From Actinomycetota bacterium (GTDB taxonomy: Bacteria; Actinomycetota; Thermoleophilia; Solirubrobacterales; Solirubrobacteraceae): a DNA stretch of 58,075 nt. Position numbers and translations under genes: made by a program. Below are positions 23,506-42,289 of the stretch, in pieces. Below the pieces are notes generated by a model that ran no database searches, had not been told where the DNA came from, and saw nothing but the letters and a program-made list of their open reading frames with translations. Position 1 is the stretch's first letter. Each line of letters starts with the position of its first letter. The DNA lies in assembly GCA_005798685.1 (NCBI GenBank), contig SYIT01000059.1, forward strand, positions 1 to 58,075, written 5' to 3'.

Positions 23506-26500
23506 ATGACCGATATCGATTCAAGCAACGCGTCGAACGAGGCCGCGTCTAGCGGAGTGCTGACCGGACCGACTCTCGCTGAGCTGGTCGGCGTGCCGAC
23601 CCTGCAGGCGATTCAGGACACCTTCGCGCAGGTATTCGGGCTGCCTACCTCAATCGTCAATGCTGACGGCAGCCCCGTGACAGCAATCACCAACCGCGTT
23701 GCGCTCTGCGAGGATCTAATTAAAGGAAGTGCGCTCGGCTGTGCGCGCTGCGACGAATGCGACCACAGCGCCTTCGCTGAGGCCAAGAGAAGCGCTGCTC
23801 CCGCGGTCTTCAAGTGCTGGAACGGCCTCTACGACGCAGCAATTCCGATTAGTCCGAAAGGCAAGACGATCGGCTACTTCCTTTGCGGCCAGATCTATTC
23901 GGAGACGCCTGATCTGATCAGCGTTGGCGAGACCGCCGCCGAACTGGGGATAGACCCGACGATCTACATGGAGCAGGCTTCGCAAATTCAAGTGATGCCC
24001 CACGAGCGCTACGAAGCGTCGATCCAAACTATGCACGTACTCGCCGGAATGATCGCCGAGCAGGCCGCGGCCTACATCGACAACATTGAGATCCTTGAAC
24101 AGTCAGTGGCTGCCCGTGAAGACACACGGCTCCTGATTGACGAGCTTGACGGGATCCTTGCAGCGCTTAGAGACATCGGCCTTCAGGCCGATCACCGCGC
24201 GACCCTGCACGCGATCGCTGACAATCTCGCAGGCCTGATTCCACACGACTCTTGCGTGATTTACGGACTTGACGGCGAGCAGCTGCAGCCGCTCATCGTC
24301 CGCGATCCAAACCCCGAGCCGCTCTGGAAGTACCAGCCGACTATCGGTCAGGGGATCGTCGGCAGCGTCGCCGCGACTCGAACCGCCCGGCGCGCCGATG
24401 ACGTACGCGCCGAACCTGACTTTGTGACGATTGAGGGGCTGGAGTCGGAACCGGAAGCGATGCTCGCTGCGCCGATTGTCGACAAAGGCGAGCTGTTCGG
24501 CGTCGTCGTACTCAGCAGGCTCGAGCGCCGCCTGTTCACCGACCACGAATTATCAATCCTGAGCGTCTTTGCGGCGCAGGCATCGGTTGCGATTCAGCGC
24601 TCGCAGATACAGGCAGATAGTGCGAAGCGCCTCGCCGAAGAGCGCGCGCTCGCCGACCTGCTGCGGGCGATGACCGGCCAGCTAACGCTTGAAGCGACGC
24701 TCGCAGAGATCGCCCGTGATGCTATGACGCTGCTGTCGGCAACCGGTGCCGTGGTTAGAGTCGCTGCGCCAAGCGCCGCAGCCAGCATTACACAGGGGAT
24801 GGCAGACGATCAAGCGGCAGAGATCATCGACCAGCTCGAGTTGGCAATCACGGCCGCAGCCAGCAAAGATGAAGCTGAAGTAACGACGCTCAACGGCCTC
24901 TCCTGCCTGATAGTGCCGCTCCGATCTGGGCCACAGCAGCTTGGCGTAATTCTTCTAACGCGCAGCGGGAACGACCGCCCGTGGGACCTAGCGCTGGTTG
25001 AAGCGCTCGCCAGCCAAGCGTCGCTCGGAATCGCCAATCGCTTGATGCACGACCGCGAGCGCGACGCCGCCCGGCGTTACCGCGGCCTGGCCGAGCTGAT
25101 ATCTGACCTTGTCGGAGCCGGCAGCGAAGAGCAACTAGTTGAGCTGCTTGTCACGCGTCTCTCTTCCGTAATGAGCGCTGAGGACTGTTTTGTCGCGCTG
25201 CGCGGCACGGAGTCAGACGCGATCACCGTTCTTCAGAGAGCCGGTCGTCAGGTGAAGCGCACGGTGGTTCCGTTGGTGGGCAGCTCACGCATCGCCAGCG
25301 CACGGCTCGGAAACGAGACTGACTCGGCTCGCGCAGCGTTCGACACGTGGGCTGAGAAGATCTGGAAAGAGATTGATGGTCAGCTCAGCCTAAGGACCTG
25401 GCTAGCCGAGCCGCTCGTTACCGCGTCGGGAGTCGTTGGTGGCACTTTCGTGGCGTGGCCCGAGCAGATCACTCAAGTAGCGGAAGGCGAAGGCGACACG
25501 CTGCGAGTCGTAGCGGGTAGCGCCAGCGCACGCCTCACGGCAATCGAAAACCAAGCCGAAACCGATGATGAGCTACGCAGCAGGATCGACGAGCTTCAAG
25601 CGTTAACCCAGCTAGCGCAGCGACTGACAGGCCTCGATGACCGCACTGCGATCATTGACGAGCTACTGCTGACATTCCGTGAGTTGGCAGGCCTCGACGC
25701 CGCAGCATACTGCCACGCGGGTCGCTCTGGATCCCCAACTGTTGGCCGCGAGCTGAACCTGCCTGCTGCGACCGCTGCGGCAATCGAGGCGGAGCTGGCG
25801 CTGATCACCGACCATTCAGCTCCGCTGCTATCGAGCCTTGGGAATGGCCGCCAGCTCGTAATTTTGCCGCTCACCGGCCACCCCGACGCTCTCTTAACCG
25901 GTATCGGCGAGCAGGTTCGTGACCCCGACCGTGATCCCGTCCTCGGCGCTCTCGCCCGCTATGGCTCGGTGGCGCTCGAGCGCGTGCGGTTGCAGGAGCG
26001 TCAGCGCCGGGCGATCTCGCGGTTGGAGCGTGAGAACAGAGACGCCAGTGCCGATTACGGCCGGCTCGAGCGGATCCTCGACCTCAACCGCGAACTGACT
26101 CACGCGCTACTCAACGCATCCGGCCCGGTGGCCGTCGCAATCACGATCGGCGAGGTGCTGGGCGCCAACGTATCGATCATTGGCGCCGATGGCTCGACGC
26201 TGGCCAGCAGCAGTGAAGATGCAGCGCCAACGTGGGCTCCCGAGGTGGATCGACACCTCACCGAGACGGTTGTTAGCGAGAATCAGGGCGGCACGATGAT
26301 CGCAGCGCCGGTCCTCGTCGATGACGACATCGCTGCTTGGGTCGTAGCCCACTTCCCAACGTCGGCCGGCGCAATCGAGCAGGCCGCGATTGAACACGCC
26401 GCGGTTTTGACGGCGCTCGACCACATGCGCGAGCGCACCGTTCAAGACGTGGCGACGCGCCTACGCCACGGCTTCCTAGACGAACTATTCAGCGGCGAAT

Positions 26501-27255
26501 TTGTTGACGAGCTTGCGATTCGGCGAGGCCAAGCGCTGGGCCTTGACCTGAGGCGCGGCGCAAGGACCTACCTAGTCGAGATAATCGGCGGCGACCACAG
26601 CCCCGGCCAGCAGCGCGCCGTAGTTGACGTAGTGAGCGAAATCGCGCGCTCCCACAGCGAACACATCATCGCTCAAGTCGACGAGACAATCGTCGCAATC
26701 ATCGCCGAAGACAGCCTTGACCCAGAAGCTAAACCCGCAGACGACGACCCGATTGAGCTGCGCCTGCAGAGCGCGATCGCAGCGCGCAAGCTCAAGGTCG
26801 ATGTCAACATCGCCGCCGGCACAGCCTGCCAGCGGCCCGGCGATTACCGTGAATCGCACAGCGCCGCGCGGCGCGGTTTGGACTTCCTGCGCCTTGTCGG
26901 CAGCACCAACGAGATGATCTCGTTCCGTCGACCCGGCGTGGAGCAGCTGCTCTTGAGCACCGGCGAGCCAGCCGCTCTCCTAGCTTTCGTAGCTCGCTAT
27001 ATCGAACCGCTTGATCGCTACGATCAGGATCATTCGGCCGAGCTGCGACACACGCTCGAGGTCTTCTACTCGCGGCAAGGGAGGCTCGAACCATCGGCGC
27101 GCGAGCTTCACGTTCACGTATCGACGCTCCGGTACCGGCTCGAGCGGATCGAGAAACTAGTTGGAGTTGACCCGCGTGCTGGCGACTCGCGACTAGACCT
27201 TGAGGTCGCCCTGCGCGCCGCGCAGGTGCTGCCGATTCACCGCGATAACCGCTGA
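23506..27255 (+). CDS. PocR-GAF-PucR family transcriptional regulator, 1249 residues
   Basis: The ATG at 23506 follows AAGGAGGCG by 7 bases, so it is preferred to the GTG at 23446. Domains in order: a PocR ligand domain (about 25-190) with cysteines C68, C79, C82, C85, C104 and C127, a likely metal or Fe-S site; GAF-type domains (about 225-375, 390-520, and weaker ones to about 860); another sensor-like stretch; and a PucR C-terminal helix-turn-helix (about 1185-1245) with the signature ARELHVHVSTLRYRLERIEK. PucR proteins activate purine and amine catabolic genes. It converges on the operon that ends at 27266 and is its likely regulator. Confidence 0.85.
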   Translation: MTDIDSSNASNEAASSGVLTGPTLAELVGVPTLQAIQDTFAQVFGLPTSIVNADGSPVTAITNRVALCEDLIKGSALGCARCDECDHSAFAEAKRSAAPAVFKCWNGLYDAAIPISPKGKTIGYFLCGQIYSETPDLISVGETAAELGIDPTIYMEQASQIQVMPHERYEASIQTMHVLAGMIAEQAAAYIDNIEILEQSVAAREDTRLLIDELDGILAALRDIGLQADHRATLHAIADNLAGLIPHDSCVIYGLDGEQLQPLIVRDPNPEPLWKYQPTIGQGIVGSVAATRTARRADDVRAEPDFVTIEGLESEPEAMLAAPIVDKGELFGVVVLSRLERRLFTDHELSILSVFAAQASVAIQRSQIQADSAKRLAEERALADLLRAMTGQLTLEATLAEIARDAMTLLSATGAVVRVAAPSAAASITQGMADDQAAEIIDQLELAITAAASKDEAEVTTLNGLSCLIVPLRSGPQQLGVILLTRSGNDRPWDLALVEALASQASLGIANRLMHDRERDAARRYRGLAELISDLVGAGSEEQLVELLVTRLSSVMSAEDCFVALRGTESDAITVLQRAGRQVKRTVVPLVGSSRIASARLGNETDSARAAFDTWAEKIWKEIDGQLSLRTWLAEPLVTASGVVGGTFVAWPEQITQVAEGEGDTLRVVAGSASARLTAIENQAETDDELRSRIDELQALTQLAQRLTGLDDRTAIIDELLLTFRELAGLDAAAYCHAGRSGSPTVGRELNLPAATAAAIEAELALITDHSAPLLSSLGNGRQLVILPLTGHPDALLTGIGEQVRDPDRDPVLGALARYGSVALERVRLQERQRRAISRLERENRDASADYGRLERILDLNRELTHALLNASGPVAVAITIGEVLGANVSIIGADGSTLASSSEDAAPTWAPEVDRHLTETVVSENQGGTMIAAPVLVDDDIAAWVVAHFPTSAGAIEQAAIEHAAVLTALDHMRERTVQDVATRLRHGFLDELFSGEFVDELAIRRGQALGLDLRRGARTYLVEIIGGDHSPGQQRAVVDVVSEIARSHSEHIIAQVDETIVAIIAEDSLDPEAKPADDDPIELRLQSAIAARKLKVDVNIAAGTACQRPGDYRESHSAARRGLDFLRLVGSTNEMISFRRPGVEQLLLSTGEPAALLAFVARYIEPLDRYDQDHSAELRHTLEVFYSRQGRLEPSARELHVHVSTLRYRLERIEKLVGVDPRAGDSRLDLEVALRAAQVLPIHRDNR

Positions 27256-27265: not shown

Positions 27266-27940
27266 CTAAACGTCCTCGTAGATCCCGCTGCCTTCGTCGC
27301 CTGAGCGTGCCTCTGACCAGACGGCATTGGAGCGTTCTGAATCCATGTTGTAGTCGCTGTGGTGAGCCCTGAAGATCGTCCCCCCAAGGCTCACCGCGGC
27401 TGCCAGCGGCTCGGCTGGATCGAAGCGAACCTCGCCCCGCGTGTTTCCAATCCCCGTCACGCCGCCAACGAATTCGTGATGGAGGTAGCGCGAGACTTCC
27501 TGGATCTGGTTAACGACGGCGAGCCCCGCGGCTTGATTGCTCTCTTCTGCCGAGAGCAACAGCGCCGAGCGCTTGCCACGCATCTGCTCCGCGACCTCCT
27601 CAAAGCGCGGGTAACTCGCGGAGGCGTAACAGACCAGACGATCAAAGAAGTTCTTCAGGCTCGCTGCCATCCCGTAGTAGTAGAGGGGTGTGGCGTATAC
27701 CCATGCATCGGCAGGCAGAAGCCTCGCGTGCATCAACTCCCTGTAACCGTCCACGGTTGAGCAGTTGCCGTCTGGCCCGCGGCAGGTACGGCAATCGCGC
27801 AGCAGCCCACTGAGCACCTCATTCAGGTCAACGAGATCAACGGTGTCGCCCGCTGCGCGAGCCCCCTCGGCGAATGCTTCAGCCAGCATTCGCGAGTTGC
27901 CGTCACGGCGTGGGCTCGCGCAGAGGACAACCGAATTCAT
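27266..27940 (-). CDS. NADPH-dependent FMN reductase (flavodoxin fold)
   Basis: The 224-residue protein has the flavodoxin-like FMN phosphate loop CASPRRDGNSRML at the N-terminus and the flavin/dimer motif TPLYYYGMAASLKNFFDRL. CRTCRGPDGNC matches the cysteine pattern in iron-sulfur flavoprotein relatives. It should reduce FMN or use bound FMN to reduce a small substrate. It is the last gene of the operon and its start directly abuts the ureohydrolase stop. No flavin-dependent monooxygenase is in the operon, so its electron acceptor is unknown. Confidence 0.83.
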   Translation of the reverse strand: MNSVVLCASPRRDGNSRMLAEAFAEGARAAGDTVDLVDLNEVLSGLLRDCRTCRGPDGNCSTVDGYRELMHARLLPADAWVYATPLYYYGMAASLKNFFDRLVCYASASYPRFEEVAEQMRGKRSALLLSAEESNQAAGLAVVNQIQEVSRYLHHEFVGGVTGIGNTRGEVRFDPAEPLAAAVSLGGTIFRAHHSDYNMDSERSNAVWSEARSGDEGSGIYEDV

Positions 27941-28954
27941 CTAGACGCGCCCGGTTCCCTGTGGGTTCGCGCGGACGCCCAGCGCGTCCATCGCTAAGCG
28001 GCAGGCGACTCGAGCCGCCTTGTTCGACTGGTCATGGACCGGCGAGCATTCGGTGATGACATAAGCGTCGACCCCCTGCTTGACGAAAGCGCGAATCATC
28101 TTGATCACTTCGCGAGGTGTCAGGCCACCGCACTCTGGCGTCGTTACGCCGGAGGTGAAGCCTTGATCCATCACGTCGAGGTCGGTGTGCAGGACGACAC
28201 CGTCGGTCCCGTTCCACGCAATCTCAAGGATCCGTTCAACGGTCTTATCGATGCCCCACTCATCGATGTCCCAGATTGTGATCATCTGGATCCCGGTGCG
28301 GTCCACATACTCGCGCTCCTCGCGGGGGTTGAGCGGGCCGTTGATTCCGACCAGCGCAACATTGTGCGGATCGACGTTTGGCAGCTCGGCGGCGCGACTG
28401 ACGGGGCAGGCGTGGTTGAGCGTTTCGCCGGCCACATCAGCGGCCGTGTCCATGTGCGAATCAAGGTGCACGTAACCCATCTGACCATCAATCAGCTTCG
28501 AGATCGCTGAAGTGACGGGAATCGGGCAGGAGTCGTCGCCACCGAAGATGATCGGGAAGGCACCGGCCTCGTAGATCTCAGTGATGCAGCGTTCAGCGCG
28601 CTCAAATGTTCGCGCTGCATTGCCCGGAACAATCGATACATCGCCACAGTCGGCGAGGCCTAGTTCGTCGAAGAGGTCAACCTGAAACTCGCCGTGGTAG
28701 GGCGTGTAGGCCTCCGAAGTGTCGCGAATCGCGCGCGGGCCGTAACTGGTGCCCGGGCGGCAGGTGTTCGTCCCCTCCCAAGGCATCCCCAGCACGCCAG
28801 CCTTAACGCCAGCTGCCTCCAGCTCCTCACAGATTGGCGGAACGACCTGTGCGCCCATGAATGAGCGGATGCCCGCGAGCAACGTGTTCGGGAAATCATT
28901 CTCCCCTTCGCGTCGCCCGAATGTGCGGTAGTGATCGTGCTGAATCTCAGCCAT
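27941..28954 (-). CDS. Ureohydrolase-superfamily protein (agmatinase/arginase-like) with altered metal site
   Basis: The 337-residue protein has the arginase fold motifs: IIFGGDDS (137-142), VHLDSHMDTA (162-171) and HTDLDVMDQGF (256-266). Five of six metal ligands are kept (D165, H167, D169, D258, D260). The His of the canonical GGDHS motif is Asp (D141). The family hydrolyses guanidino or related C-N bonds to urea, usually with two Mn2+, or Ni2+ in the guanidine hydrolase branch. A strong AAGGAG site precedes the ATG. Specificity cannot be stated; it may be a catalytic enzyme with a changed metal or a non-catalytic partner. Confidence 0.82.
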   Translation of the reverse strand: MAEIQHDHYRTFGRREGENDFPNTLLAGIRSFMGAQVVPPICEELEAAGVKAGVLGMPWEGTNTCRPGTSYGPRAIRDTSEAYTPYHGEFQVDLFDELGLADCGDVSIVPGNAARTFERAERCITEIYEAGAFPIIFGGDDSCPIPVTSAISKLIDGQMGYVHLDSHMDTAADVAGETLNHACPVSRAAELPNVDPHNVALVGINGPLNPREEREYVDRTGIQMITIWDIDEWGIDKTVERILEIAWNGTDGVVLHTDLDVMDQGFTSGVTTPECGGLTPREVIKMIRAFVKQGVDAYVITECSPVHDQSNKAARVACRLAMDALGVRANPQGTGRV

Positions 28955-28984
28955 TCTCTTCTCCTTGATTGGTGTTGTGTCGGC

Positions 28985-30232
28985 TCATTGGCCGTAACGC
29001 TCTGTGAATGCTGTGGCTGCCTGCTCAAAGCAGTCGCGCGGGGCACGCAAGATGCCAGCACCGATCTGTCCGCCGCCGCGACCGGCAAGGCCCGCGTCGA
29101 TCGCTGGCAGCACACCAGCCTCGATCACTTTGAAGATCTCGATCCCGACCGGCGTACCGCGATATCCGAAGTAAGGAATTAGGAAGTCGCTGTGCTCGGC
29201 GACGGTGATCTCGTACATCGATTCATTGGTGTGCGCCATCGCCTCGGGCGATCCGCCTTGGTAGGCCTGCAAAGCTGGAGCGGCAGCCTGCGCAAAGCCG
29301 CCGAGCCCGATCGTCTCCATGATCATGCTCTCGCCGCCCATCCACTCGATGTCAGCCTCGCTGTAGCCCTCGAAGAGCTGAGCCTCAACATCGGGCAACG
29401 GGCCGCGGAACCACGCGTCACCAAGTCCACTAACCCGAACCGAAAATTCGCAGCAGCTGAGCGTCATCGCACTGACGACGCTTGAGTGCTCGATATCCCG
29501 CGCCGCGTCAGCGGTTGCCTTGCCGGCGGCCATACCGACGCGCAAGAAAAAGTAATCGTTCTCGGCTAGGAATGCCAAGGTTTCCAGTAGCCGACCCGAG
29601 TCGGCGTCCGGTTCGCCAGCGGCGGCGACAAAATAAGGCGCGAGCTCTTTTGTCAGCAGCGTCGTGGCGGCCGTATTGCGACTGTGAAGCTCGTCGCCCA
29701 TGTTGACAGCGCGGCACATTATCGGCTTCAGGTCGATGCCGCCGGAGTGCTTCAGCGCCTCGCCAAGGACCGGGCCGATGACCTCCTCTAGGTACTTCAG
29801 GCCGTCATGGACGGCTTGGTCGTAAACGCCGTAATTGAGACGGCGCGGCGACTTTCCTTCGTACAGGTTGCACAACGCGGTATTGCCAAATTCGCGGTTC
29901 TCGACGATCAAGACAGGCATCGACGCCGTATAGATACCAGCAACCGAGCCCACGCAGCCGTGATCGTGGGTTGAGCCAATCGTTATCTCGCCCGAGGAAA
30001 GTTTTGCATCAGCGTCAGCTTCGTCGCGCGCTAACCCCTCGTAGATAGCGCCGCCGATGATCGCCATCCGCTGACCACCGGTGTATTGATCCCATTTTAG
30101 CGGAGCACCCGAGGTAAGGATCATCTGATCTGTCATCCCTGGGATGACATCTCGCGCGGCCTCTATCCCAACTAGCGTTGGCGTAGAGGCGCAGAGCCGC
30201 CTAGCCGCTTCGATGTTCGCTTCGTCGCGCAC
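28985..30232 (-). CDS. DUF1116 protein (AllG/YlbE-like), first copy
   Basis: This 415-residue protein (GTG start at 30232) belongs to DUF1116, the family of E. coli YlbE/AllG and YahG. AllG is one of three subunits (AllF/FdrA, AllG, AllH) of oxamate carbamoyltransferase in anaerobic allantoin use. Conserved blocks are QYTGGQRMAIIGGA, HDHGCVGSVAGIYTASMPVL, RRLNYGVYD and NMGDELHSRN. It is a clear paralogue of the protein encoded at 31601-32851. No FdrA or AllH homologue and no carbamate kinase is in the window. It starts 4 bases after the stop of the second synthetase gene. Confidence 0.82.
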   Translation of the reverse strand: MRDEANIEAARRLCASTPTLVGIEAARDVIPGMTDQMILTSGAPLKWDQYTGGQRMAIIGGAIYEGLARDEADADAKLSSGEITIGSTHDHGCVGSVAGIYTASMPVLIVENREFGNTALCNLYEGKSPRRLNYGVYDQAVHDGLKYLEEVIGPVLGEALKHSGGIDLKPIMCRAVNMGDELHSRNTAATTLLTKELAPYFVAAAGEPDADSGRLLETLAFLAENDYFFLRVGMAAGKATADAARDIEHSSVVSAMTLSCCEFSVRVSGLGDAWFRGPLPDVEAQLFEGYSEADIEWMGGESMIMETIGLGGFAQAAAPALQAYQGGSPEAMAHTNESMYEITVAEHSDFLIPYFGYRGTPVGIEIFKVIEAGVLPAIDAGLAGRGGGQIGAGILRAPRDCFEQAATAFTERYGQ

Positions 30233-30236
30233 TTCG

Positions 30237-31601
30237 TTACCAGAGCCTTAGATACATGTCGCGTTCCCATCCGCCAACGACGGTGTTGTAAGCCAGCCAC
30301 TCTTCACGCTTCTTCTTGATGAAGGTCGCGTGGAATTCATCGCCGAGCACCTCGCGCGCAAGCTCACTCGCTTCAAACGCGTCGGTCGCCTCACCGAGGT
30401 TGCGCGGCAAGCGATTGACTCCCGCAGCGGCCAACTCGTCGTCGCTCATCTGGTAGGTGTCATCGTTGACTGGCGTGCCGGGGTCAAGTTCGTTCTCGAT
30501 CCCGTCTAGCCCGGCAGCGAGCATCACCGCCATCACTAGGTACTGGTTCGATGCACTATCTGCCGTTCGCAGCTCTACGCAGGGCCTGTTGGTTGGGAGC
30601 CGGCACATCAGGGTGCGGTTGTTGTCGCCGTAGGCCTGGAAGACCGGGGCCCATGAGATCTCGTTCATCAGTCCTACAGGCAACAACCGCTTGTAGGAGT
30701 TGACAGTCGAGCATGCCAGCGCAGTAATCGCGCCGGCATGCCTGAGCAGCCCGGCCGTGAACTGGTGCGCGGCGGGGAGATAGCTGACCGTTCCATCGCC
30801 GTTGTCGCTAGCGAAGATGTTCTCGCCGCTCGCGGCCTCAAGGAGGCTCATGTTGACGTGTGCGCCTGAGCCAAAAGAACTATCGAACGGCTTGGGCATG
30901 AAGGTCGCGTAGCAGCCGAGCTGCCTTGCGACGTGCTTGGCCATCAGCTTAAAGATCACCATCCGGTCGGCCATCTCAAGCGCGCCGCAGTGCGTGAAGG
31001 CAAACTCGTATTGGCCGTCGCCACCCTCGTGGTCGAACGAATAGACATTCCAGCCGAGCTCGTTCATGTACTCCACCATCGGCAGCAGAAACTGATCTGC
31101 AGCGATCGTCGCCTCAATGTCGTAGCCCCGCGTTGGAGCGTTCAGAAGGTCATCGGTGATCCAAGGCAGAACCTCGCCGTCCTCGCCCTCTCGCAGTACG
31201 TAAACCTCTGGCTCGATTCCAGCCTGCGCGCTGAACCCAGCCGCCGCGGCGCGTTCCAATTGGCGCTTGAGCACGTAGCGTGAATCGTGACTATACGGCT
31301 GGCCGTCAAAGCTTAGGTCGGCGGGTGCGATAGCGAAGCGCTTGTCCCACGGAAGAACTACCGCCGACTCGAGCTCGGGGATTCCGCAGCACTCATCCTC
31401 GTTGGGGCCAAGGTCGCCCATCCCCTCCAAGGCGCCGACGGTGTAGCGCTCCGAACCGGCAGCCATCTCGTCGATGAACGCGAGCGGGACACACTTCGAC
31501 TTCGGCACGCCAAACATGTCGACGTAGGCACCGAAAAGGAACTCGACCCCTTGACCACCGAGCGCCTTGCGCAGCTCGTCAAGATTGACTGAGGCTTCCA
31601 T
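30237..31601 (-). CDS. Type III-like (GlnT/GMAS) glutamine synthetase, first copy
   Basis: The 454-residue protein has the glutamine synthetase fold: beta-grasp domain with AYVDMFGVPKSKCVP, metal-binding GIEPEVYVL (E-x-E), SGAHVNMSLL, and the ATP/glutamate segment GDNNRTLMCRLPTNRPCVEL. The sequence fits the GlnT group that includes gamma-glutamylmethylamide synthetase, so the acceptor may be ammonia or an amine. The ATG at 31601 overlaps the TGA of the upstream DUF1116 gene by one base and has GGAGG 6 bases before it. It sits between two DUF1116 genes, which links the two families. Confidence 0.87.
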   Translation of the reverse strand: MEASVNLDELRKALGGQGVEFLFGAYVDMFGVPKSKCVPLAFIDEMAAGSERYTVGALEGMGDLGPNEDECCGIPELESAVVLPWDKRFAIAPADLSFDGQPYSHDSRYVLKRQLERAAAAGFSAQAGIEPEVYVLREGEDGEVLPWITDDLLNAPTRGYDIEATIAADQFLLPMVEYMNELGWNVYSFDHEGGDGQYEFAFTHCGALEMADRMVIFKLMAKHVARQLGCYATFMPKPFDSSFGSGAHVNMSLLEAASGENIFASDNGDGTVSYLPAAHQFTAGLLRHAGAITALACSTVNSYKRLLPVGLMNEISWAPVFQAYGDNNRTLMCRLPTNRPCVELRTADSASNQYLVMAVMLAAGLDGIENELDPGTPVNDDTYQMSDDELAAAGVNRLPRNLGEATDAFEASELAREVLGDEFHATFIKKKREEWLAYNTVVGGWERDMYLRLW

Positions 31602-32851
31602 CACGCCCCTCCATACTGTTCGCTGTGGGCGGCGACTGCATGCTCAAAGCAGGCCAGTGGGGCTCGCAGCACGCCGGCGCCGATCTGTCGCCCGTCGCCA
31701 CCGGCAATCCCAATGTCCATGACCGGCTGAATTCCGCTCTCGATGACCCTGAAGGCGTCAATCCCAAGCGGGACGCCCCGGAAGCCGAAGAAGGGAATCT
31801 TGTACTCCGGGTGCTCACCGACAGTGATCTCGTACATCGAGCGGTTCAGCTCAGCCATGTCCTCAGGTGTGCCGCCTTGGTATTCCTGAAGCGTGAACGC
31901 TGACGCTTGGGCAAAGCCACCCAACCCGACTGTCTCGGTGATCACGCTCTCGCCACCCATGAACTCGATGTCGCCTTCAGTGAAGCCGTCGAAGAGCTTC
32001 GCCTGCGCTGGCTCAATGTCGGCGGAGAACCAGCGATCGCCGGTCCCGCCGAGACGGATCGAGAACTGGGAGCAGGAGAAGGCCATTGCGCTGACCACGC
32101 TCGACCTCTCGATGTCACGCGCGGCGTCGGCGGTCGCCTTGGCAGCCGCCATCGACAGCCGCAGGAAGAAGTAGGGACTGTCAGACATGAAGGCGTAGGT
32201 CTGGCGCACCTCTTCCGGCTTGTCGCCAAGCATCTCGAAGAAGTACGGCACCATCTCGCGGCCAAACAGCAGCGTTCCGGCCGCGTTGCGGCTGTGCATC
32301 TCATCGCCCATTCCCAGCGCGCGGCGAATAATTGGCCTAAGCGGGATGCCGCCCTCGGATCGCTTAACAGCTTCGGCGACGGTCGGCGCAATCACGTCCT
32401 GAACGAAGAGAAGGGTGTCGCGCACCTCCTTATCGTAGGTGCCGTAGTTGAGGCGCTTAGGTGACGGCCCCTCAAAGAAGTTGCAGAACCCAACGTTGCC
32501 GTTTGCCGTATTCTCGACCGCGAGCACCGGCATTGACGCGGTGTAGATCCCAGCGAGTGAGCCGACGCAGCCGTAGTCGTGGCAGCCATCTACGAGGATC
32601 TCGCCCGACTTCAGCTTGGCGTCGGCGTCACCGGCATCTGAGGCGAGCCCCTCGAACAGCGCCCCTCCGATCACTGCCGCCCGCTGCCCGCCGGTGTACT
32701 GCTCCCATTCCATCGGAGCGCCGGAGGTCAGGATCACATTCGGCTTCATTCCTGGCAGCGCGTCGCCCGCGGTCATCACTTCGGTGAAGACTGGAGTTGC
32801 TCCAGCGAGGCGCTCGAAGGCGAGCTTGTTTGCGGTTTCGTAATCCGTCAC
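31601..32851 (-). CDS. DUF1116 protein (AllG/YlbE-like), second copy
   Basis: The 416-residue protein (GTG start at 32851) aligns along its full length with the DUF1116 protein at 28985-30232, with matching blocks QYTGGQRAAVIGGA, HDYGCVGSLAGIYTASMPVL, KRLNYGTYD and GMGDEMHSRN. In known systems DUF1116 is a carbamoyltransferase subunit that works with FdrA and AllH. Two copies in one operon without those partners suggest a hetero-oligomer, or a reaction that does not need FdrA. Its stop is coupled to the next synthetase gene. Confidence 0.82.
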   Translation of the reverse strand: MTDYETANKLAFERLAGATPVFTEVMTAGDALPGMKPNVILTSGAPMEWEQYTGGQRAAVIGGALFEGLASDAGDADAKLKSGEILVDGCHDYGCVGSLAGIYTASMPVLAVENTANGNVGFCNFFEGPSPKRLNYGTYDKEVRDTLLFVQDVIAPTVAEAVKRSEGGIPLRPIIRRALGMGDEMHSRNAAGTLLFGREMVPYFFEMLGDKPEEVRQTYAFMSDSPYFFLRLSMAAAKATADAARDIERSSVVSAMAFSCSQFSIRLGGTGDRWFSADIEPAQAKLFDGFTEGDIEFMGGESVITETVGLGGFAQASAFTLQEYQGGTPEDMAELNRSMYEITVGEHPEYKIPFFGFRGVPLGIDAFRVIESGIQPVMDIGIAGGDGRQIGAGVLRAPLACFEHAVAAHSEQYGGA

Positions 32852-32878
32852 GGCGACTCTTTCCGGCTCGGCTTTCGT

Positions 32879-33595
32879 TTACGGCAGCGGCTTGTCGTAG
32901 CCCTCGGCGGCGAGCTGCTGCTCTTGCCACGCACGGTCCACTTCAGGCCAGAAGTGCTCGGGGTGCTCCAGCGTCCAGATCTGAGAGCGGATGATGAAGT
33001 TGTCTGGGTCGTGTTCGAGTCCGTCGCGCCATAGTTCAAGCGCCCGCTCGCGGTCGCCGGCTTGGTAAGCGATCACGCCTTCTGCAAAAAGCTCCAGCGC
33101 GCGAGGCTCCATCGCCTCTCCGGCCTTGGGCTGCCTAACGACCTCGCCAGCGAGAAAGCGGTCAACGTTGACTCGGACTCTCGGGTCGCCAATCTCGAAT
33201 GTTCCACTGATGTCTGCCATCGCAACAGTTCCCTCGGCGTCGATGAAGATGCCGAGGGGAACCATCTGCGCTCCAACAGCGGCCCCAAGAGAGCTCGTGG
33301 TGTCGAGCAGCACGGGGAACTCGGCGCCGCTCGCCTCAACGGTCGGTGCCGCAGTCTCTGCTCCCTTTGCGTCAAAAATCGCGGCAAGCATCTGGAAGTC
33401 GCGGCCGCGCGACTCCCAGTAGGTCTGCCAACTCGGTAGCTGTTCCTTGCAGGTACACCATGAAGCGAAGCAGAAGAGGATCGTTCGCTGACCAACGAGA
33501 TCCGCCGCCGACCAACTCCTCCCGGTAAGATCCACGAGTTCGAACTGAGGGAAGCGCTCGCCGACTACAGCGAATGAGTTGCTGGGCGCGGCCAT
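32879..33595 (-). CDS. Redoxin (thioredoxin/AhpC-TSA-like) protein with TPR tail
   Basis: From the ATG at 33595 (one-base overlap with the upstream TGA) the 238-residue protein has a thioredoxin-fold domain (about 8-150) with the active segment FCFASWCTCKEQLPSW. Cysteines are C42, C47 and C49, so the usual WCxxC is replaced by WCTC. A helical tail from about 175 (ALELFAEGVIAYQAGDRERA, then LELWRDGLEHDPDN) looks like one or two tetratricopeptide repeats. It lacks a signal peptide, so it acts in the cytoplasm. A role as redox partner or scaffold for operon enzymes is inference. Confidence 0.75.
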   Translation of the reverse strand: MAAPSNSFAVVGERFPQFELVDLTGRSWSAADLVGQRTILFCFASWCTCKEQLPSWQTYWESRGRDFQMLAAIFDAKGAETAAPTVEASGAEFPVLLDTTSSLGAAVGAQMVPLGIFIDAEGTVAMADISGTFEIGDPRVRVNVDRFLAGEVVRQPKAGEAMEPRALELFAEGVIAYQAGDRERALELWRDGLEHDPDNFIIRSQIWTLEHPEHFWPEVDRAWQEQQLAAEGYDKPLP

Positions 33596-34368
33596 CAGAA
33601 GGAGCTCCCCTTTGGTGCAACGTCCTGGTACCACTGCTTCTTCTCGCCAATCTTGGCGCGCATCTTCCACTTGCGGCTCTTCGGCGCGTCATCGATCAGC
33701 TTGCGCAGGTCGTTGATGCGGGAGAGGATTAGTGCTCCCTGCTCGGCGCTGATCATTTCGAAGTCGGGAATGAAGCGCTCGACCCTGTCGAGGTTGATAT
33801 TGACGGTGTGGTCGAAGCCCCAGTCACCGGAGAGCAGCTTGGCGATGTAGCCGCCATCGATCTCCTCAGTCGAGGTCGGGTTCTCCACAACAGGGTGCTC
33901 GAGCATCAGAACGAGCGTGTCCTTAACGTCCTTGAGGTTCAGTTCGACGATCTGCATCTTCTCGAGCAACAGGTCGCAGGTAGTAATCGTCGGCGAATCA
34001 AGATCAAGCCGATCACGCAGTGGGATCGGGTGGCAGAAGTAGAGCTCGTCATAGAAGACGTCTACGCCGAGTCCGTTGTTCGGATCCTCGAAGTAGTAAC
34101 GCCTGCCTTCTGTCGAGGCGGTCATGCGCTGATCCTCTTCAAAGCCACGGGCGACGAGGAACTTCTTGATCTCTCGGGACTTGCGACGGTCGGCAGCGAA
34201 GTCGATGTCAGTCAGCGCACGCTCCATTGCTTCGAAGAGCTGGAGGTTTTCGGGACAGTGGATCCGGTACGCGAGCGAACCAAGAATTCGCAGTTGTAGG
34301 CCCTGCGCCTGAGCATCGTCAACGATACTGAGCCCTTCCCTGACGAAATGCTCGTTCTCTACAGACAT
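33595..34368 (-). CDS. Nucleotidyltransferase-superfamily protein
   Basis: The 257-residue protein shows the minimal nucleotidyltransferase core: LGSLAYRI with G30-S31, TDIDFAAD with D54 and D56, and a third acid in LGVDVFYDE (D103). Spacing fits the superfamily pattern. The rest, including HPIPLRDRLDLDSPTITTCD and LLLEKMQIVELNLKDVKDT, resembles AbiEii/MNT-like enzymes that move a nucleotide onto proteins or small molecules. Its stop overlaps the redoxin start by one base. It lies in an operon with two glutamine synthetases, but it is not the GlnE family. Confidence 0.7.
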   Translation of the reverse strand: MSVENEHFVREGLSIVDDAQAQGLQLRILGSLAYRIHCPENLQLFEAMERALTDIDFAADRRKSREIKKFLVARGFEEDQRMTASTEGRRYYFEDPNNGLGVDVFYDELYFCHPIPLRDRLDLDSPTITTCDLLLEKMQIVELNLKDVKDTLVLMLEHPVVENPTSTEEIDGGYIAKLLSGDWGFDHTVNINLDRVERFIPDFEMISAEQGALILSRINDLRKLIDDAPKSRKWKMRAKIGEKKQWYQDVAPKGSSF

Positions 34369-34389
34369 TCAAACTCCTGGCATTTGGTG

Positions 34390-34415
34390 CCCCACCCGCA
34401 GCGGTGCGGGCGGGG
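34390..34415. other. Intercistronic GC-rich hairpin
   Basis: CCCGCA pairs with TGCGGG around GCGG, and flanking CCCC/GGGG extend the stem to 11 positions with a single A-C mismatch. It lies in the 97-base gap between the APC permease and nucleotidyltransferase genes, the widest gap in the operon. No T-run follows on the minus strand. It may be an mRNA processing or stability element that sets lower levels for the upstream permease message. Confidence 0.5.
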
Positions 34416-34465
34416 CGCGGGGGTTAGCAGCGCCCGAAACAACGCTGGTGAATCTAAAACGACCT

Positions 34466-36100
34466 CTATTCGATTGGAATCTCTTTGAACGCGAGGTTGA
34501 TGTCGACGCCCTGCGAGCGGCGATACAACTTCATCACGTAGAAGAACAGCAGCCCCGAAACAAACACTCCCGCTGCCACAACCAAACGCGAGCCTCGCGC
34601 ATTGACGGCGAACTCATCGAGGTACAGGTTAATGCTGTAACCGACTCCAGCGATGAAGCCGACCAGACAACCGACCGTCATGATCGGCAGGCCGAACAGC
34701 TTCTTATTGGCGATCGACGACTTGCCGTAGATCTCCGGACGCTTGAACGGGAATACCGCTCCGGCACCAAGCGCGACCGTCCAAGCGACAACACCTACGA
34801 GCAGGAACAGAACCAATGTCCCGAAGTAGCTCACGTACACGAACAGGTACATGAAAACGGCCGTTACCAGTGTTGCCACTGCTATAGCCACAACCGGGCT
34901 GTGGAAGCGGTCAGAGACCGTTCCGAGCTTGTTCGGCGCAACGCGGTCGAATGCCCAGGCGATCATCGCCCGTTCACCGTACGACTGCATCGCTGGAATC
35001 CATAGCCAAATCCAAGCAATGAATCCAGCCGCCATGATCACCGTCAAGACCGACGAACCTCCGAGGATCCCAGCCAACAGCGTCACCCACGGAACTACAG
35101 GCGTAGCCTGCGCGCCAGCGTCGAGATTGAGCCCGAGTGAGTTGTAGCCGACCGTTCCGAGGAAATCGTAGCCGAAGACGTTGGTTCCTAGGATCGTGCC
35201 GACTAGGAAGAAAACACCGCAGACCCAAACTCCGGAGAACATTCCGACCGTCTGGCCTCTGTTACCTGATTTGATCTCGCCGCCGATCGCGATCGAGAAG
35301 GCAGCACCGACCAACGGCAGGAATGCCCAGTTCGAGGCCTGCAATGTCTGACCTAGATTGAAGGTCCCTGGGTCGGCCCAGCCGCCAACTTTTCCGCTAG
35401 CGATCACGCCGGCATATGTTGCGTCCGGACCGAAGGCCTTATCGAAGTTCGCAATGAACGTCTCCTTCGAGCCAAACAGCATCACCGCGAACATCACGAA
35501 AATGCCGATGAAAGCGATCACCACCATGACCTTCTGCGAGAGGAAGTAACGCCGCATTCCTGAGCCGAGGATCGAGCCGGCAAGAATCAGCACCACGATT
35601 CCGCCCGCAAAGGTCCAGATCGGCTCAGCGAGTGTCGCCGCAAAATCGCTAAGTCCAGCGCTACCGGTCTGAATGCCGAGCACCACGAACATCGGGATTA
35701 GCCCGATAGTCATGATCCAGTAGGCCGCTAGAGCACAGAAGAACAGCCAAGCAATCGACTCAGCCCAGCTGAGCATGAAAGCAATTGGCGGTGGCAGTAT
35801 TCGACTTACAAAGGGATAAATGCCGCCTGAGCGAGGAATAACTGCCGTCCAGGTCAACATGCCAAACGCGATCATCGACATCGCAACGCAAGCGATGATG
35901 ATTCCGAGTGGCAGGTTCGCACCTGGGTAGACGGACGGACCGTAGAGCAGTACCCCGGCGATCCCAATACCGATCGATACGACACCGATGTTGAAGATGA
36001 CGACGTCAGCTGTCGACGCCGTCTTGATCAGTCCCGATGCCTTTCTGAGGAATACGCGGTCGCCGCCGCTTGCCCCCGTTGCTTCAGTGTTGCTATCCAT
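34466..36100 (-). CDS. APC-superfamily amino acid/amine permease
   Basis: The ATG at 36100 follows AAAGGAGAG by 5 bases and is preferred to the one at 36127. The 544-residue protein has about 12-14 transmembrane helices. The N-terminal segment ASGLIKTASTADVVIFNIG is typical of APC helix 1, where the substrate backbone is bound. It should import an amino acid, polyamine or related amine using a cation gradient. Its place in the operon makes it the likely uptake route for the pathway substrate. Specificity is not visible. Confidence 0.86.
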   Translation of the reverse strand: MDSNTEATGASGGDRVFLRKASGLIKTASTADVVIFNIGVVSIGIGIAGVLLYGPSVYPGANLPLGIIIACVAMSMIAFGMLTWTAVIPRSGGIYPFVSRILPPPIAFMLSWAESIAWLFFCALAAYWIMTIGLIPMFVVLGIQTGSAGLSDFAATLAEPIWTFAGGIVVLILAGSILGSGMRRYFLSQKVMVVIAFIGIFVMFAVMLFGSKETFIANFDKAFGPDATYAGVIASGKVGGWADPGTFNLGQTLQASNWAFLPLVGAAFSIAIGGEIKSGNRGQTVGMFSGVWVCGVFFLVGTILGTNVFGYDFLGTVGYNSLGLNLDAGAQATPVVPWVTLLAGILGGSSVLTVIMAAGFIAWIWLWIPAMQSYGERAMIAWAFDRVAPNKLGTVSDRFHSPVVAIAVATLVTAVFMYLFVYVSYFGTLVLFLLVGVVAWTVALGAGAVFPFKRPEIYGKSSIANKKLFGLPIMTVGCLVGFIAGVGYSINLYLDEFAVNARGSRLVVAAGVFVSGLLFFYVMKLYRRSQGVDINLAFKEIPIE

Positions 36101-36157
36101 TCTCTCTCTCCTTTGATTGCGTTCCAAGCCGCCTCAACGACCGGGAACAATGCACCG

Positions 36158-37141
36158 CTAACCCTGCGTAAATTGGTAGTCGCGAACTTGATCAGCCTCA
36201 AGCGTGATCAATGCGCCGTTCAAGATTCCTTCGCTGTAGACGCTGCCGGGATTAATGCAGAGTGTGCGACCGATCGTGGTCTCTCCGCGCCCTTCGTGGA
36301 TGTGGCCGTGGAGTCCCAGCATCGGCTGGTACTCCTCAATCGCGTCACGCACCGCGATGCTCCCTGCCGGTGCCATCACCGGGTTGCCGACCGAGTAGAT
36401 GACCTGCATATCGTCATCGAGCTTCGGGCAGAGATCGATCTTCGAGTTGTGAGGCGGAACGTGGAGGTTGAAGATCGTATGCTCCATATCCTCAACTTGA
36501 TCGATCATCGATTTGAGTCTCTCCGCCAACTCTTCCTCCGAGCACTCGCGTTCAGTGTCCCACGGGGTGCGGTTGGTCCAGCCGGAGGTAATGATCTCGT
36601 GCTGATCTGAGATTCGGTGGACGCGCATCTCGAGCAGGTCAATGCTTTCTGATTCGTCAATAATCTCATCGACCTCGAAAAGGTCATCGTTGCCGGGGGC
36701 TGCGAAGGCGCGGATCTCTTTGCCATCTAGCTTCTCGTCGGCGTAAGCGATCCATTCACGCAGGCGGTCAAACATAAGCCGTTTGAAAAGCTCATCCTGC
36801 GCGTCCTGCGACGAGCGAATCTCGAGGAACTCGTCCTCTTCCATCACGGCGGGGTAAAGACCCATATTCGCCGTCTTCTTAACGAAGTCAGCGACCTCTT
36901 GTTCGGTTGTCAGCTCGTGATCAGCGCCCGCGAAATGGGTACGGTAGTTGCCGTTCCCTTGACGGCAAATCGGCACGACCATTTTGCCGGTCACATCACC
37001 GCCAAGAATCAGCGTGTCAGCGCCGTAAAACTTCGCGGCGTTGATGAATTTGCGGAAGCAGACGGTTGAACCGTGCACATCCGAGCAGAAGAAGATCTTC
37101 GTCTGTGGCCCAGTGCTCTTCTTTTTACGCCCGAAAGCCAT
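36158..37141 (-). CDS. Calcineurin-like metallophosphoesterase
   Basis: The 327-residue protein carries all blocks of the family in order: CSDVHGS, LGGDVTG, APGNDD, NLHVPPH and LGLHGHIHEGRG. These bind two metal ions for phosphomonoester or phosphodiester hydrolysis. The start ATG at 37141 overlaps the TAA of the synthetase gene by one base, so its level is tied to the synthetase. It could reverse a nucleotidyl or phosphoryl modification, or act on an intermediate; both ideas are inference. Confidence 0.85.
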   Translation of the reverse strand: MAFGRKKKSTGPQTKIFFCSDVHGSTVCFRKFINAAKFYGADTLILGGDVTGKMVVPICRQGNGNYRTHFAGADHELTTEQEVADFVKKTANMGLYPAVMEEDEFLEIRSSQDAQDELFKRLMFDRLREWIAYADEKLDGKEIRAFAAPGNDDLFEVDEIIDESESIDLLEMRVHRISDQHEIITSGWTNRTPWDTERECSEEELAERLKSMIDQVEDMEHTIFNLHVPPHNSKIDLCPKLDDDMQVIYSVGNPVMAPAGSIAVRDAIEEYQPMLGLHGHIHEGRGETTIGRTLCINPGSVYSEGILNGALITLEADQVRDYQFTQG

Positions 37142-38520
37142 TAGAGAAACTCCAGGTAGCGGTCATATTCCCATTGCGAAACGGTGTTGTGGTAGTCCCA
37201 CCATTCTTGGCTCTTGACCTCCACGAACGCGTCACGCAGGTCGGCGCCGCAAACCGCTTCGCTGAGCGGATCGGCGGCGAAGGCTTCAACTGCTTCGAGC
37301 AGCGTTCGCGGCAGAGTCTCAACCCCCAGCTCGGTGATCTTCTCGGGCGGCTGAAGATACATGTTGAGATCGATTGGATCGCCAGGGTCCATCTCCTTTT
37401 CGATCCCTTCGAGCCCTGCCCCAAGCATCATTGCAGCGCCCAGGTATGGGTTGACGGCGATGTCGACGGCGCGCGATTCAACTCGAGGCGAATTCATCGG
37501 GATACGGACCATGTGAGTGCGATTGTTATTGCCGTATGAGATGAAGACCGGCGCCCATGTGAAGCCGGTCATTGAGCCGGCGACGACGAGCCGCTTGTAG
37601 GAGTTGACGGTCGGGCAGGTAACAGCAACGATCGCCTTGGCGTGCGCCAAGACGCCGGCGATGAAGTGGTAGGCGAGCTTTGAGACGCCGCAGCCGCGCG
37701 GGTCGCTGGGGTCGGCGAATACATTCTCGCCGGTCTTGGCATCAGCCATCGACATATTAAAGTGGCCACCGCTGCCGGTGCGGTTCGAGTAAGGCTTTGG
37801 CATAAAGGTCGCTTCAAAGCCGTGCTCGCGTGCCATCACCTTCGTCATCAGACGCAGGAAGGTCAAACGATCGGCCATCGTCATGCAGTCGGCGTAAGAG
37901 AAGTCCAGCTCAAACTGGCCGTTCGCATCCTCGTGATCGTAAGAGTGCACGTCGTATCCGAGCGAGTTCATGTTCTTGATCAGCTGATCAAGGAACGGCT
38001 GAGCTTCGAGCAGGTTGACGATGTCGTAGGCGGCGCGCGGGATCACGTTCTTTGGATCGGCGGGGACCACTTCCCCATCTGCGTTGCGCCGCACGAGGAA
38101 GAATTCCGGCTCGATGCCGAGGTTGAAGATCAAGCCGTGCTCGGATAGGCGGTCAATCTGCCGTTGGAGCACATTACGGGTATCCATCGGCCAAGGTTCC
38201 TCGTGCAGCTTGAGGCTGCCTGGCGCCCAAGCGACGGTTGGCTCCCACGGCATTACGGTGATCGCGTCGAGGTCTGGCCATACGGCCAGCTCGTCGTCTG
38301 AAGGCTCCTGGCCTAGCCCGTCGATTGCGGCTCCGGTGTATAGCTCTGAGCCATTCATCATGTTCACGAAGTGCGCGATCGGCACCGACTTGGCCTTCGT
38401 TACGCCGTGAACATCTACAAAGGACGAAAGGCAGTACTCAACCCCCGCGGCCATCAGTTCATCGCGCTTAGCCTCGAGCGTTGCGAGGTCGTACTTGCCC
38501 GGTGCAGCGTGTGCAGCCAT
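37141..38520 (-). CDS. Type III-like (GlnT/GMAS) glutamine synthetase, second copy
   Basis: The 459-residue protein has the synthetase core: SSFVDVHGVTKAKSVP in the beta-grasp domain, GIEPEFFLVRR (E-x-E metal ligands), SGGHFNMSMAD, and NNNRTHMVRIPMNSPRVESR. It ends DRYLEFL. Like the copy at 30237 it belongs to the GlnT group, whose members make glutamine or gamma-glutamyl alkylamides. It is the first gene of the operon and its promoter should lie in the 277-base gap to the metal ABC transporter genes. The palindrome CTAATTAG sits just before the ATG. Confidence 0.88.
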   Translation of the reverse strand: MAAHAAPGKYDLATLEAKRDELMAAGVEYCLSSFVDVHGVTKAKSVPIAHFVNMMNGSELYTGAAIDGLGQEPSDDELAVWPDLDAITVMPWEPTVAWAPGSLKLHEEPWPMDTRNVLQRQIDRLSEHGLIFNLGIEPEFFLVRRNADGEVVPADPKNVIPRAAYDIVNLLEAQPFLDQLIKNMNSLGYDVHSYDHEDANGQFELDFSYADCMTMADRLTFLRLMTKVMAREHGFEATFMPKPYSNRTGSGGHFNMSMADAKTGENVFADPSDPRGCGVSKLAYHFIAGVLAHAKAIVAVTCPTVNSYKRLVVAGSMTGFTWAPVFISYGNNNRTHMVRIPMNSPRVESRAVDIAVNPYLGAAMMLGAGLEGIEKEMDPGDPIDLNMYLQPPEKITELGVETLPRTLLEAVEAFAADPLSEAVCGADLRDAFVEVKSQEWWDYHNTVSQWEYDRYLEFL

Positions 38521-40626: not shown

Positions 40627-41456
40627 TCGACGAACTGCTACGGCCCTTCGCCTTCGAGTTCTTCCGCAACGGACTGATCGTGGCAACGTTGGCTGGCGCT
40701 CTCTGCGGACTAGTCGGCGTCTACATCGTGGTGCGCGGGATGAGCTACCTGGCTCATGGCCTCTCGCACGCGATCTTCGGTGGCTTTGCCGCCAGCGCAC
40801 TGCTTGGCGTCAGCTTCCTGCTGGGAGCTGGCGTTTGGGGGATCGCTTCGGCATTGGCGATTACCTCGGTCACGCGGCGCCGACCGATCGGCGCCGACGC
40901 AGCGATCGGCGTCGTGACGACCGCCTCGTTCGCCCTTGGGCTGATCCTCTTTGCACTATTCGGCCACAGCGGAGCCAGCTTTGACGCGGCGCTGTTCGGG
41001 AGCGTTCTCGGTGTATCGCTAACGAGCGTGATCGTGATTGCCATTGTCTCAGTCCTGGTTGTAGCGATCGTGAGCTTCGCTTACAGGCCGCTGCTATTCA
41101 CGACCTTCGACCCCGAGGTTGCGGCTGCTTCGGGGTTGCGCACTACACGCATCGAAGCGCTGCTGATGGTCGTCTTCGCGATCTCAATTCTCGTCTCGAT
41201 GCAGGTGCTCGGAGTGACGTTGATCGCGGCAGCACTGGTGATCCCGCCGACGATCGCGCGCCTGTTGACGAGTTCCTTCTCACAGATGTTGATTCTCTCG
41301 AGTGCAATCGGCGCTACGTGCGGCTTCATCGGCATGAACCTCAGCTACCACCTTGACGTTCAGTCAGGGCCGGGGATCGTGATTGTCGCCGCCTGCGCCT
41401 TCCTCGTCGTCTACGCCATCAAACGCCCTATTGGGATGCAGCGCGCCGCAGCTTAA
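40623..41456 (+). CDS. Metal ABC transporter permease (ZnuB/MntB-like)
   Basis: The GTG start at 40623 overlaps the ATPase stop by 4 bases. The 277-residue protein has about 8 hydrophobic helices and the ABC-3 family blocks VRGMSYLAHGLSHAIFGG near the start and GVTLIAAALVIPPTIARLL. It forms the membrane channel of the three-gene metal importer. Its stop overlaps the converging GntR gene by 4 bases. The importer may supply metal to the ureohydrolases and synthetases nearby. Confidence 0.92.
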   Translation: MIDELLRPFAFEFFRNGLIVATLAGALCGLVGVYIVVRGMSYLAHGLSHAIFGGFAASALLGVSFLLGAGVWGIASALAITSVTRRRPIGADAAIGVVTTASFALGLILFALFGHSGASFDAALFGSVLGVSLTSVIVIAIVSVLVVAIVSFAYRPLLFTTFDPEVAAASGLRTTRIEALLMVVFAISILVSMQVLGVTLIAAALVIPPTIARLLTSSFSQMLILSSAIGATCGFIGMNLSYHLDVQSGPGIVIVAACAFLVVYAIKRPIGMQRAAA

Positions 41457-42289
41457 GAAGCAGCGTCGACGGTCATCGTCGCTTCAAGGTTGCCGCTTGC
41501 CTTCCCCGACGAGAGATCGAGGCGGAACTGAAGTCGATCGCCGCGATATTCAACGCGTGCGACCTCGAATGGCACCGGCCCGCGAGGTGTCGTGCGGAAC
41601 TCCTGACAGAGGACTAGAAAGACAGCGGCGCGCTCCGGGATCCCAAAGCAATCGGCCTCAAACTGACCACAGTGACTGGTCTCGATCGAGACGTCGGAAT
41701 GAGCCAACTCGACGCCATGATCGGCGAGCACAATATCTGGCGCGAGCGGCTCTCCTACCTTGGTCGTCGCTTCCAACCAGCCGACATCGGCTCGTGAGAA
41801 GAAAGACGAGCTGATCGCCATTGGCACGCCGCGGATTGACATCAGCGCCGTGAGGCGAAAAATCTCGGCGTCAGCGTCGAGCGCCAGCCGTTCACGTATC
41901 GAACGCTCGGCGCGAACTACTCGGCGGTCTAACACTGTCGCTTCGAGGAACGACTCGCGAGGACTCTCAAGGAGCCGGGACAGACCGCCCGCGCGATAAT
42001 CCAACTTTGGTTCAGCGACGAAGGTCCCGCGGCCGCGGATCCTCTCGATCTGACGATCATCCTCAAGGATTGCAAGGGCGCGGCGGACGACTGCCCGGCT
42101 AACCCCGAGTGAACGCGCAAGCTCTGGCTCCGAAGGGAGAGCATCGCCCGGGTTCCAACCACCGGACTCGATCCGCTCCTTCAGCACCTCCTGAAGCTGG
42201 TAGTACAACGGGACAAAGCTAGTTCGATCTAGCAGATCGGGATCGAGCCTATTCCGAATACTTCTGGCGACCTTAGGGGCGGATGCCAT
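41453..42289 (-). CDS. GntR-family regulator, HutC subfamily (UTRA domain)
   Basis: The 278-residue protein has a GntR winged helix near residues 25-95 with GDALPSEPELARSLGVSRAV and IRGRGTFVAEP, then a UTRA ligand domain (about 110-265). HutC-type regulators repress catabolic genes until a pathway metabolite binds. It is divergent from the guanidine hydrolase-like gene, with a 162-base shared region holding a promoter and a 10-base direct repeat, so it most likely controls that gene and itself. Confidence 0.88.
   Translation of the reverse strand: MASAPKVARSIRNRLDPDLLDRTSFVPLYYQLQEVLKERIESGGWNPGDALPSEPELARSLGVSRAVVRRALAILEDDRQIERIRGRGTFVAEPKLDYRAGGLSRLLESPRESFLEATVLDRRVVRAERSIRERLALDADAEIFRLTALMSIRGVPMAISSSFFSRADVGWLEATTKVGEPLAPDIVLADHGVELAHSDVSIETSHCGQFEADCFGIPERAAVFLVLCQEFRTTPRGPVPFEVARVEYRGDRLQFRLDLSSGKASGNLEATMTVDAAS

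Follow-up and report, generated by a model that had tools for sequence, protein, structure and literature searches.

We describe a ten-gene operon in a 58,075-nucleotide window (the whole stretch of DNA analysed here, positions 1 to 58,075 of contig SYIT01000059.1, assembly GCA_005798685.1, from an actinobacterium of the Solirubrobacteraceae), in which two glutamine synthetase (GS)-family genes, GS1 and GS2, lie among two DUF1116 genes, a ureohydrolase gene, and a permease gene. Its GS-paired DUF1116 proteins could well be enzymes of a new family, one that cooperates with amine-type GS ligases in an undescribed step of gamma-glutamyl-amide catabolism, occurs in two phyla, and in some lineages is joined to the hydrolysis of substituted guanidines. 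GS-like ligases are a gateway for many amines, pollutants included, and what becomes of methylated guanidines and of metformin products in fresh water, from which this actinobacterium comes, is an open question. The fixed association of DUF1116 with amine ligases, seen in two phyla, points to a reaction still to be assigned, and the Pfam name "oxamate carbamoyltransferase subunit AllG" is probably wrong for the GS-paired genes; the gene pairs, residue differences, and genomes named below make the question testable.

A DUF1116 clade and its probable ligase partners

In a comparison of 67 DUF1116 proteins and their gene neighbourhoods, 26 proteins, among them both from the window, formed a single clade (support 100/100, branch 1.17) apart from all AllF-linked members, the other 41 comprising 29 encoded beside AllF and 12 with neither partner. 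Of the 26 clade members, 25 have a GS-family gene no more than 5 kb away, and the 41 other DUF1116 genes have none at that distance (Fisher p 1.6e-17, uncorrected for shared descent), counting as paired locus L036, whose GS match sits on the adjoining piece L035; the single exception is a DUF1116 gene of genome G773 (G773:C64, locus L032), with GS3 ~15 kb distant. The clade spans Actinomycetota and Alphaproteobacteria, and its genes occur in three arrangements (GS first, DUF1116 first, or divergent), so the adjacency has outlasted rearrangement. GS and DUF1116 distances also co-vary, both over 19 pairs (r 0.63, 0 of 5000 permutations) and over 17 dereplicated pairs (r 0.51, 1 of 5000 permutations). 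D183, E184, H186, and R188 of a GDExHxR motif are invariant across the whole DUF1116 family, while twelve positions, including T42, G55, S98, R133, N135, R231, C260, and E301, are consistently different in the clade. DUF1116 has the 3clq fold (Z 56), beyond which Foldseek's candidates included no convincing relative. No GS pairing is described in the accessible portions of the open-access literature mentioning DUF1116, and a described pathway with the operon's gene set, of which the original prediction knew none, was not found in the open-access literature either. Separately, 12 DUF1116 genes from the family to which the window belongs (L042-L053) make up a third group, with neither a detectable AllF nor a GS neighbour.

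The ligases themselves appear to act on amines. When solved structures were ranked, the glutamate--methylamine ligase 9qur came first for both GS1 and GS2, ahead of 7cql and true glutamine synthetases. Aligned with E. coli GlnA, both retain E129, E131, E212, E220, H269, R321, R339, R344, E357, and R359, and the catalytic Asp, Glu, and Arg of GmaS are likewise retained (alignments and key-residue table). At the ammonium site, D50 and E327 are replaced by Thr and Trp in both, and Y179 by Ala in GS1 and Gly in GS2; 9qur has Ala, Cys, and Trp at positions 50, 179, and 327. In RhGmaS, too, the ammonia-binding Asp is missing and Trp replaces the flap Glu (PMC7948447). Given the lost ammonium site and the likeness to glutamate--methylamine ligase, GS1 and GS2 should ligate amines, not ammonia, to give gamma-glutamyl amides, as the original prediction had proposed; true glutamine synthetase was rejected as an assignment on the loss of the ammonium-binding residues. 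The likeness to GmaS extends over the fold, the metal and ATP/Glu residues, the catalytic Asp/Glu, and the Trp in place of the flap Glu, while Thr instead of Ala at position 50 and the DUF1116 partner set the window's ligases apart. To our knowledge, neither the GmaS route nor the aniline (AtdA1/A2), isopropylamine (Ipu), or putrescine (Puu) routes contain DUF1116; the latter three share with the operon a GS-like ligase acting on an amine and, with some related clusters, a Rieske oxygenase or gamma-glutamyl hydrolase. From these sequence comparisons, the core of the system is likely amine glutamylation with DUF1116 as the ligase's partner.

Ureohydrolases and a possible guanidine route

Two ureohydrolases connect the operon with guanidino compounds. 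The one encoded within it matches the structure of metformin hydrolase best (194 bits), followed by guanidinase (182 bits) and agmatinase (100 bits); a plain agmatinase or arginase was rejected because the agmatinase equivalog scored 160 bits, below its cut-off of 174, and metformin and guanidine hydrolases are nearest. The second, Arg2, lies ~4 kb from the operon and resembles the guanidinases GdmH and that of N. inopinata (60% identity to the latter) in its metal motifs, T105, and H222, an APC permease being used there too. Arg2 occurs in five of nine actinobacteria with the DUF1116-GS pair and two of 49 without it (p 5e-4) and, within the window's genus, in all four operon carriers and none of 13 others, both comparisons being uncorrected for kinship. 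In G140, an Arg2 homologue is followed by a gene resembling a nickel permease (translation read by eye). A dimethylguanidine-hydrolase-type pair stands near the GS-DUF1116 pair of the Hyphomicrobiales genome G773, where contig C270 carries an arginase-family gene, GS2, and DUF1116-2 and, ~9 kb on, HypB with an alpha/beta hydrolase pair, a minus-strand gene, a polyamine-type transporter, and a TetR gene lying between (transporter, TetR, and HypB named by eye). The alpha subunit is ~80% identical to that of metformin hydrolase (677 bits) and has Ser-Thr-Ser where metformin hydrolase has Asn-Ser-Ala; Ser-Thr-Ser is the dimethylguanidine-hydrolase type (PMC11399263). A further ureohydrolase (L205, 5231-6229, G000:C64), 38% identical to the operon's and followed by a nitrilase-like frame, is also present in genus members without the operon.

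The operon plausibly forms a catabolic module for a substituted-guanidine or amine-type nitrogen compound, the sequence-based support being the ligase residues, the ureohydrolase relationships, and the conserved linkage. The APC permease would import the compound, and one or both ureohydrolases may hydrolyse a substituted guanidine, yielding an amine and urea, for which relatives add a urease. GS1 and GS2 would then use ATP to attach the amine to the glutamate gamma-carboxyl; this sequence of steps is suggested by the hydrolase, which would release urea, the urease present in relatives, and the amine ligases, taken together. We predict that DUF1116, as dedicated ligase partner, is most likely the enzyme that receives the gamma-glutamyl amide or supplies its amine, by means of the GDExHxR motif. 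The nucleotidyltransferase-fold protein (NTase), phosphoesterase, redoxin, and FMN reductase would be accessory, perhaps controlling or completing the chemistry, with the PocR-PucR-type and GntR proteins as probable regulators. For the window's genus, we consider the case for a guanidine-derived amine evenly balanced, and an N-methylated guanidine is our favoured but tentative guess at the substrate. The original prediction had also allowed for a carbamoyl compound; its guanidino part is plausible from the ureohydrolase relationships, while its carbamoyl part is not supported, as the DUF1116 clade is separate and lacks AllF, AllH, and AllK partners.

Several observations weigh against a guanidine route. 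The first metal His of the operon ureohydrolase is Asp in all three copies aligned (five of six ligands kept), and the gene is single, without the adjacent alpha/beta partner of metformin and dimethylguanidine hydrolases (MefH, DmgH). Arg2 has Ser at W313, as do the G301 and G140 copies; W313 is part of the published guanidinase rule, under which its loss excludes a true guanidinase (PMC11410670). Arg2 may take a larger substrate; the true guanidinase was inactive on the larger guanidino compounds tested, save for trace agmatine activity (PMC11410670). The window's own genome, 78% complete, yielded no urease. No guanidine riboswitch was found either; its absence and the presence of the GS-DUF1116 operon nearby are further differences between Arg2 and the guanidinase systems. 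The dimethylguanidine-type alpha occurs in two of eight clade-bearing alphaproteobacteria and in none of 33 others searched (kinship uncorrected), and in G773 the minus-strand gene separates the dimethylguanidine-type pair from the GS-DUF1116 pair. Finally, a ureohydrolase is missing from most DUF1116-GS clusters elsewhere, and several contain Rieske oxygenases, short-chain dehydrogenases/reductases (SDRs), or formamidase instead. The core reaction therefore need not involve guanidines and is better stated as amine glutamylation plus DUF1116, with the guanidine step as this lineage's own front end.

Competing explanations and the module in other genomes

The genes stay linked across families, classes, and phyla, a comparison that the original prediction had named as its own refuting check; genes in GC-rich relative loci were called by amino-acid composition, and a few calls there may be wrong. 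In G301, of another family, GS1, the metallophosphoesterase (MPE), APC permease, redoxin, DUF1116, and NTase stand together with Arg2 (82% identity), a GntR gene (64%), and a creatininase-family gene nearby. G625, of another class, carries one module with GS1, MPE, APC, NTase, redoxin, and DUF1116, and a parallel one with DUF1116, formamidase, gamma-glutamyl hydrolase, GS2, MPE, NTase, and APC, and the alphaproteobacterium G854 has DUF1116, GS1, MPE, APC, and NTase. On Rhodococcus plasmids (R. pyridinivorans SB3094; R. opacus 1CP pR1CP1; Rhodococcus sp. JS3073), DUF1116 stands with one or two GS genes, joined in the two annotated records by gamma-glutamyl-GABA hydrolase, glutaminase, and APC or NCS1 permeases. 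Between the two DUF1116-GS operons of pR1CP1 (L074, 17790-36133) lie a tpdB-annotated gene (tetramethylpyrazine oxygenase) and other oxygenase genes.

These clusters bear on a possible, though rather doubtful, alternative in which the operon is a general amine module (for an alkylamine, methylamine, amino-alcohol, or aromatic amine) like those of PuuA, GmaS, IpuC, or AtdA1, and the ureohydrolases are neighbours that meet a separate demand for nitrogen from urea or guanidine. The Rhodococcus plasmids, which pair DUF1116 and GS with SDRs and the hydrolase and glutaminase above and have no ureohydrolase, fit it well, as do Rieske oxygenases akin to glycine betaine monooxygenase (GbcA type, far under the equivalog cut-off) that adjoin the pair in several genomes. 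It accounts less readily for the three ureohydrolase subtypes that adjoin the module in the window's genus, or for Arg2 accompanying the module into another family.

It is improbable that DUF1116 is a carbamoyltransferase as in E. coli AllFGH and that the operon degrades a ureide or carbamoyl compound. The domain (PF06545) and the invariant GDExHxR motif are common to both, but the clade is separate, with its twelve substituted positions, and AllF lies beside none of its 26 members compared with 29 of the 41 other DUF1116 genes; the window's two genes have no AllF, AllH, or AllK (carbamate kinase) beside them. AllH (PF11392) was found in none of nine actinobacterial genomes with the clade (the window's own being the incomplete one given above), and the three clade-bearing alphaproteobacteria that do have AllH each also have a separate canonical DUF1116. 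Since allFGH was described for E. coli and all three proteins are needed there (PMC11326118), we rejected oxamate carbamoyltransferase subunits on the missing AllF/AllH/AllK partners and the separate clade. Ordinary nitrogen assimilation by two ammonia glutamine synthetases, regulated by an adenylylating NTase and the phosphoesterase, is very improbable: GS1 exceeds the "type III glutamate--ammonia ligase" cut-off and retains Tyr397, but the ammonium-binding Asp50, Tyr179, and Glu327 are gone from both ligases, and their nearest solved relative is a methylamine ligase.

Operon layout and surroundings

All ten minus-strand genes of the original prediction are open and nearly contiguous over 27266-38520, and their Pfam/NCBIfam matches (FMN_red, Arginase, AllG (DUF1116) twice, Gln-synt_C twice, AhpC-TSA with TPR, AA_permease_2, and a weak Metallophos) agree with the families it had assigned. 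The tight spacing that it described holds as well. Only APC-NTase, the widest gap (97 bp), is well over 30 bp; GS1/MPE and NTase/redoxin overlap by 1 base and DUF1116-1/GS2 by 4 bases, and the remaining gaps are 30 bp for MPE-APC (57 bp with an inner ATG start for APC), 27 bp for redoxin to DUF1116-1, 4 bp for GS2 to DUF1116-2, 30 bp for DUF1116-2 to ureohydrolase, and 0 bp for ureohydrolase to FMN reductase. The gene order is the same in three relatives of the window's genus (L030, L031/L034, L037), so the operon is not an assembly accident; these include the freshwater metagenome-assembled genome records WLNV01000040.1 (L030) and CAMCVN010000023.1 (L031). Promoter and terminator predictions gave signals near chance level, and no relative was found among the viral contigs searched. 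For the proposed nucleotidyltransferase, which has no Pfam match, the predicted model (pLDDT 77) resembles the minimal nucleotidyltransferases, with Cid1, MenT1, ANT(2'')-Ia, and LnuA as Foldseek matches (best E 8e-4, low TM-scores), and is consistent with that fold. GS1 keeps the adenylylation position Tyr397, and the NTase and phosphoesterase travel with it, making a dedicated on/off modification of GS1 conceivable.

Table 1. Features of the operon and its surroundings, in window coordinates
Feature	Coordinates	Strand	Evidence and remarks
GS3 remnant, C-terminal 120 codons	23069..23429	+	98% identical to G093
PocR-GAF-PucR-type regulator, 1,269 residues, convergent with operon	23446..27255	+	PF10114, GAF, HTH_30
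NADPH-dependent FMN reductase/flavodoxin-like	27266..27940	-	PF03358; also adjoins module in L078, L173
Ureohydrolase, metformin/guanidine hydrolase-like	27941..28954	-	nearest PDB metformin hydrolase alpha, 194 bits; 5/6 metal ligands (GGDHS to GGDDS)
DUF1116-2 (AllG2), GS-paired clade, GS2 partner	28985..30232	-	PF06545, 242 bits; AllG2-GS2 pair kept in L078, L172, L174
GS2, amine-type GS-family ligase (by sequence)	30237..31604	-	TIGR03105, 453 bits, under cut-off 469.6; nearest PDB 9qur, 320 bits
DUF1116-1 (AllG1), GS-paired clade	31601..32851	-	PF06545, 230 bits; clade support 100/100
Redoxin (AhpC/TSA) with TPR	32879..33595	-	PF00578, PF07719; kept in L076, L121
NTase, nucleotidyltransferase-fold protein (predicted)	33595..34368	-	no Pfam family; predicted model and Foldseek; ILGS...TDID conserved
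APC-superfamily permease	34466..36127	-	PF13520; kept in L076, L121, L173; start may be ATG ending at 36100
MPE, calcineurin-like metallophosphoesterase	36158..37141	-	PF12850, 27.7 bits; adjoins GS1 in L076, L121, L173
GS1, first operon gene, glutamate-methylamine-ligase-like GS-family ligase	37141..38520	-	TIGR03105, 570 bits (cut-off 469.6); nearest PDB 9qur, 403 bits
GntR/UTRA regulator, divergent from Arg2	41453..42289	-	PF00392, PF07702; 64% homologue near module in L076
Arg2, second ureohydrolase, guanidinase relative, W313 to Ser	42311..43639	+	476 bits to GdmH 7esr and N. inopinata guanidinase 9fek; start may be further in

The convergent PocR-GAF-PucR regulator, like the second ureohydrolase and the GntR regulator (41453-43639), was absent from the original prediction; the latter two belong with the GS1 module, and in L121, too, a PocR-PucR-type regulator is present, with a DUF1116-GS module on either side. 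Upstream of GS1, between it and GntR-Arg2, lies a Znu-like metal ABC transporter (38759-41456), which also adjoins Arg2 in G144, G093, and G414 and might provide the metal of the ureohydrolase. On the regulator's far side, G093 and G144 carry GS3, a second ureohydrolase, a GroEL-like protein, and a urease operon, and in a third relative (G414 = G775, the genome of L030) GS3, this ureohydrolase, the GroEL-like gene, and urease lie together on another contig (L190). This ureohydrolase beyond the regulator is found in the relatives only, and the window's homology to their GS3-urease region ends at 23069, where, within 22548-23429, a truncated MIP-channel gene abuts the last 120 GS3 codons; the break could be either a deletion or an assembly chimera. 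The divergent GroEL-like gene sits between this second ureohydrolase and urease (L034, 5560-7260; L037, 10650-12350), a position comparable to that of the nickel chaperones HypA/HypB in metformin hydrolase operons. CAMCVN010000023.1, the record of a close relative of the window's genome, carries the title "Bifidobacterium breve", which looks like a wrong label.

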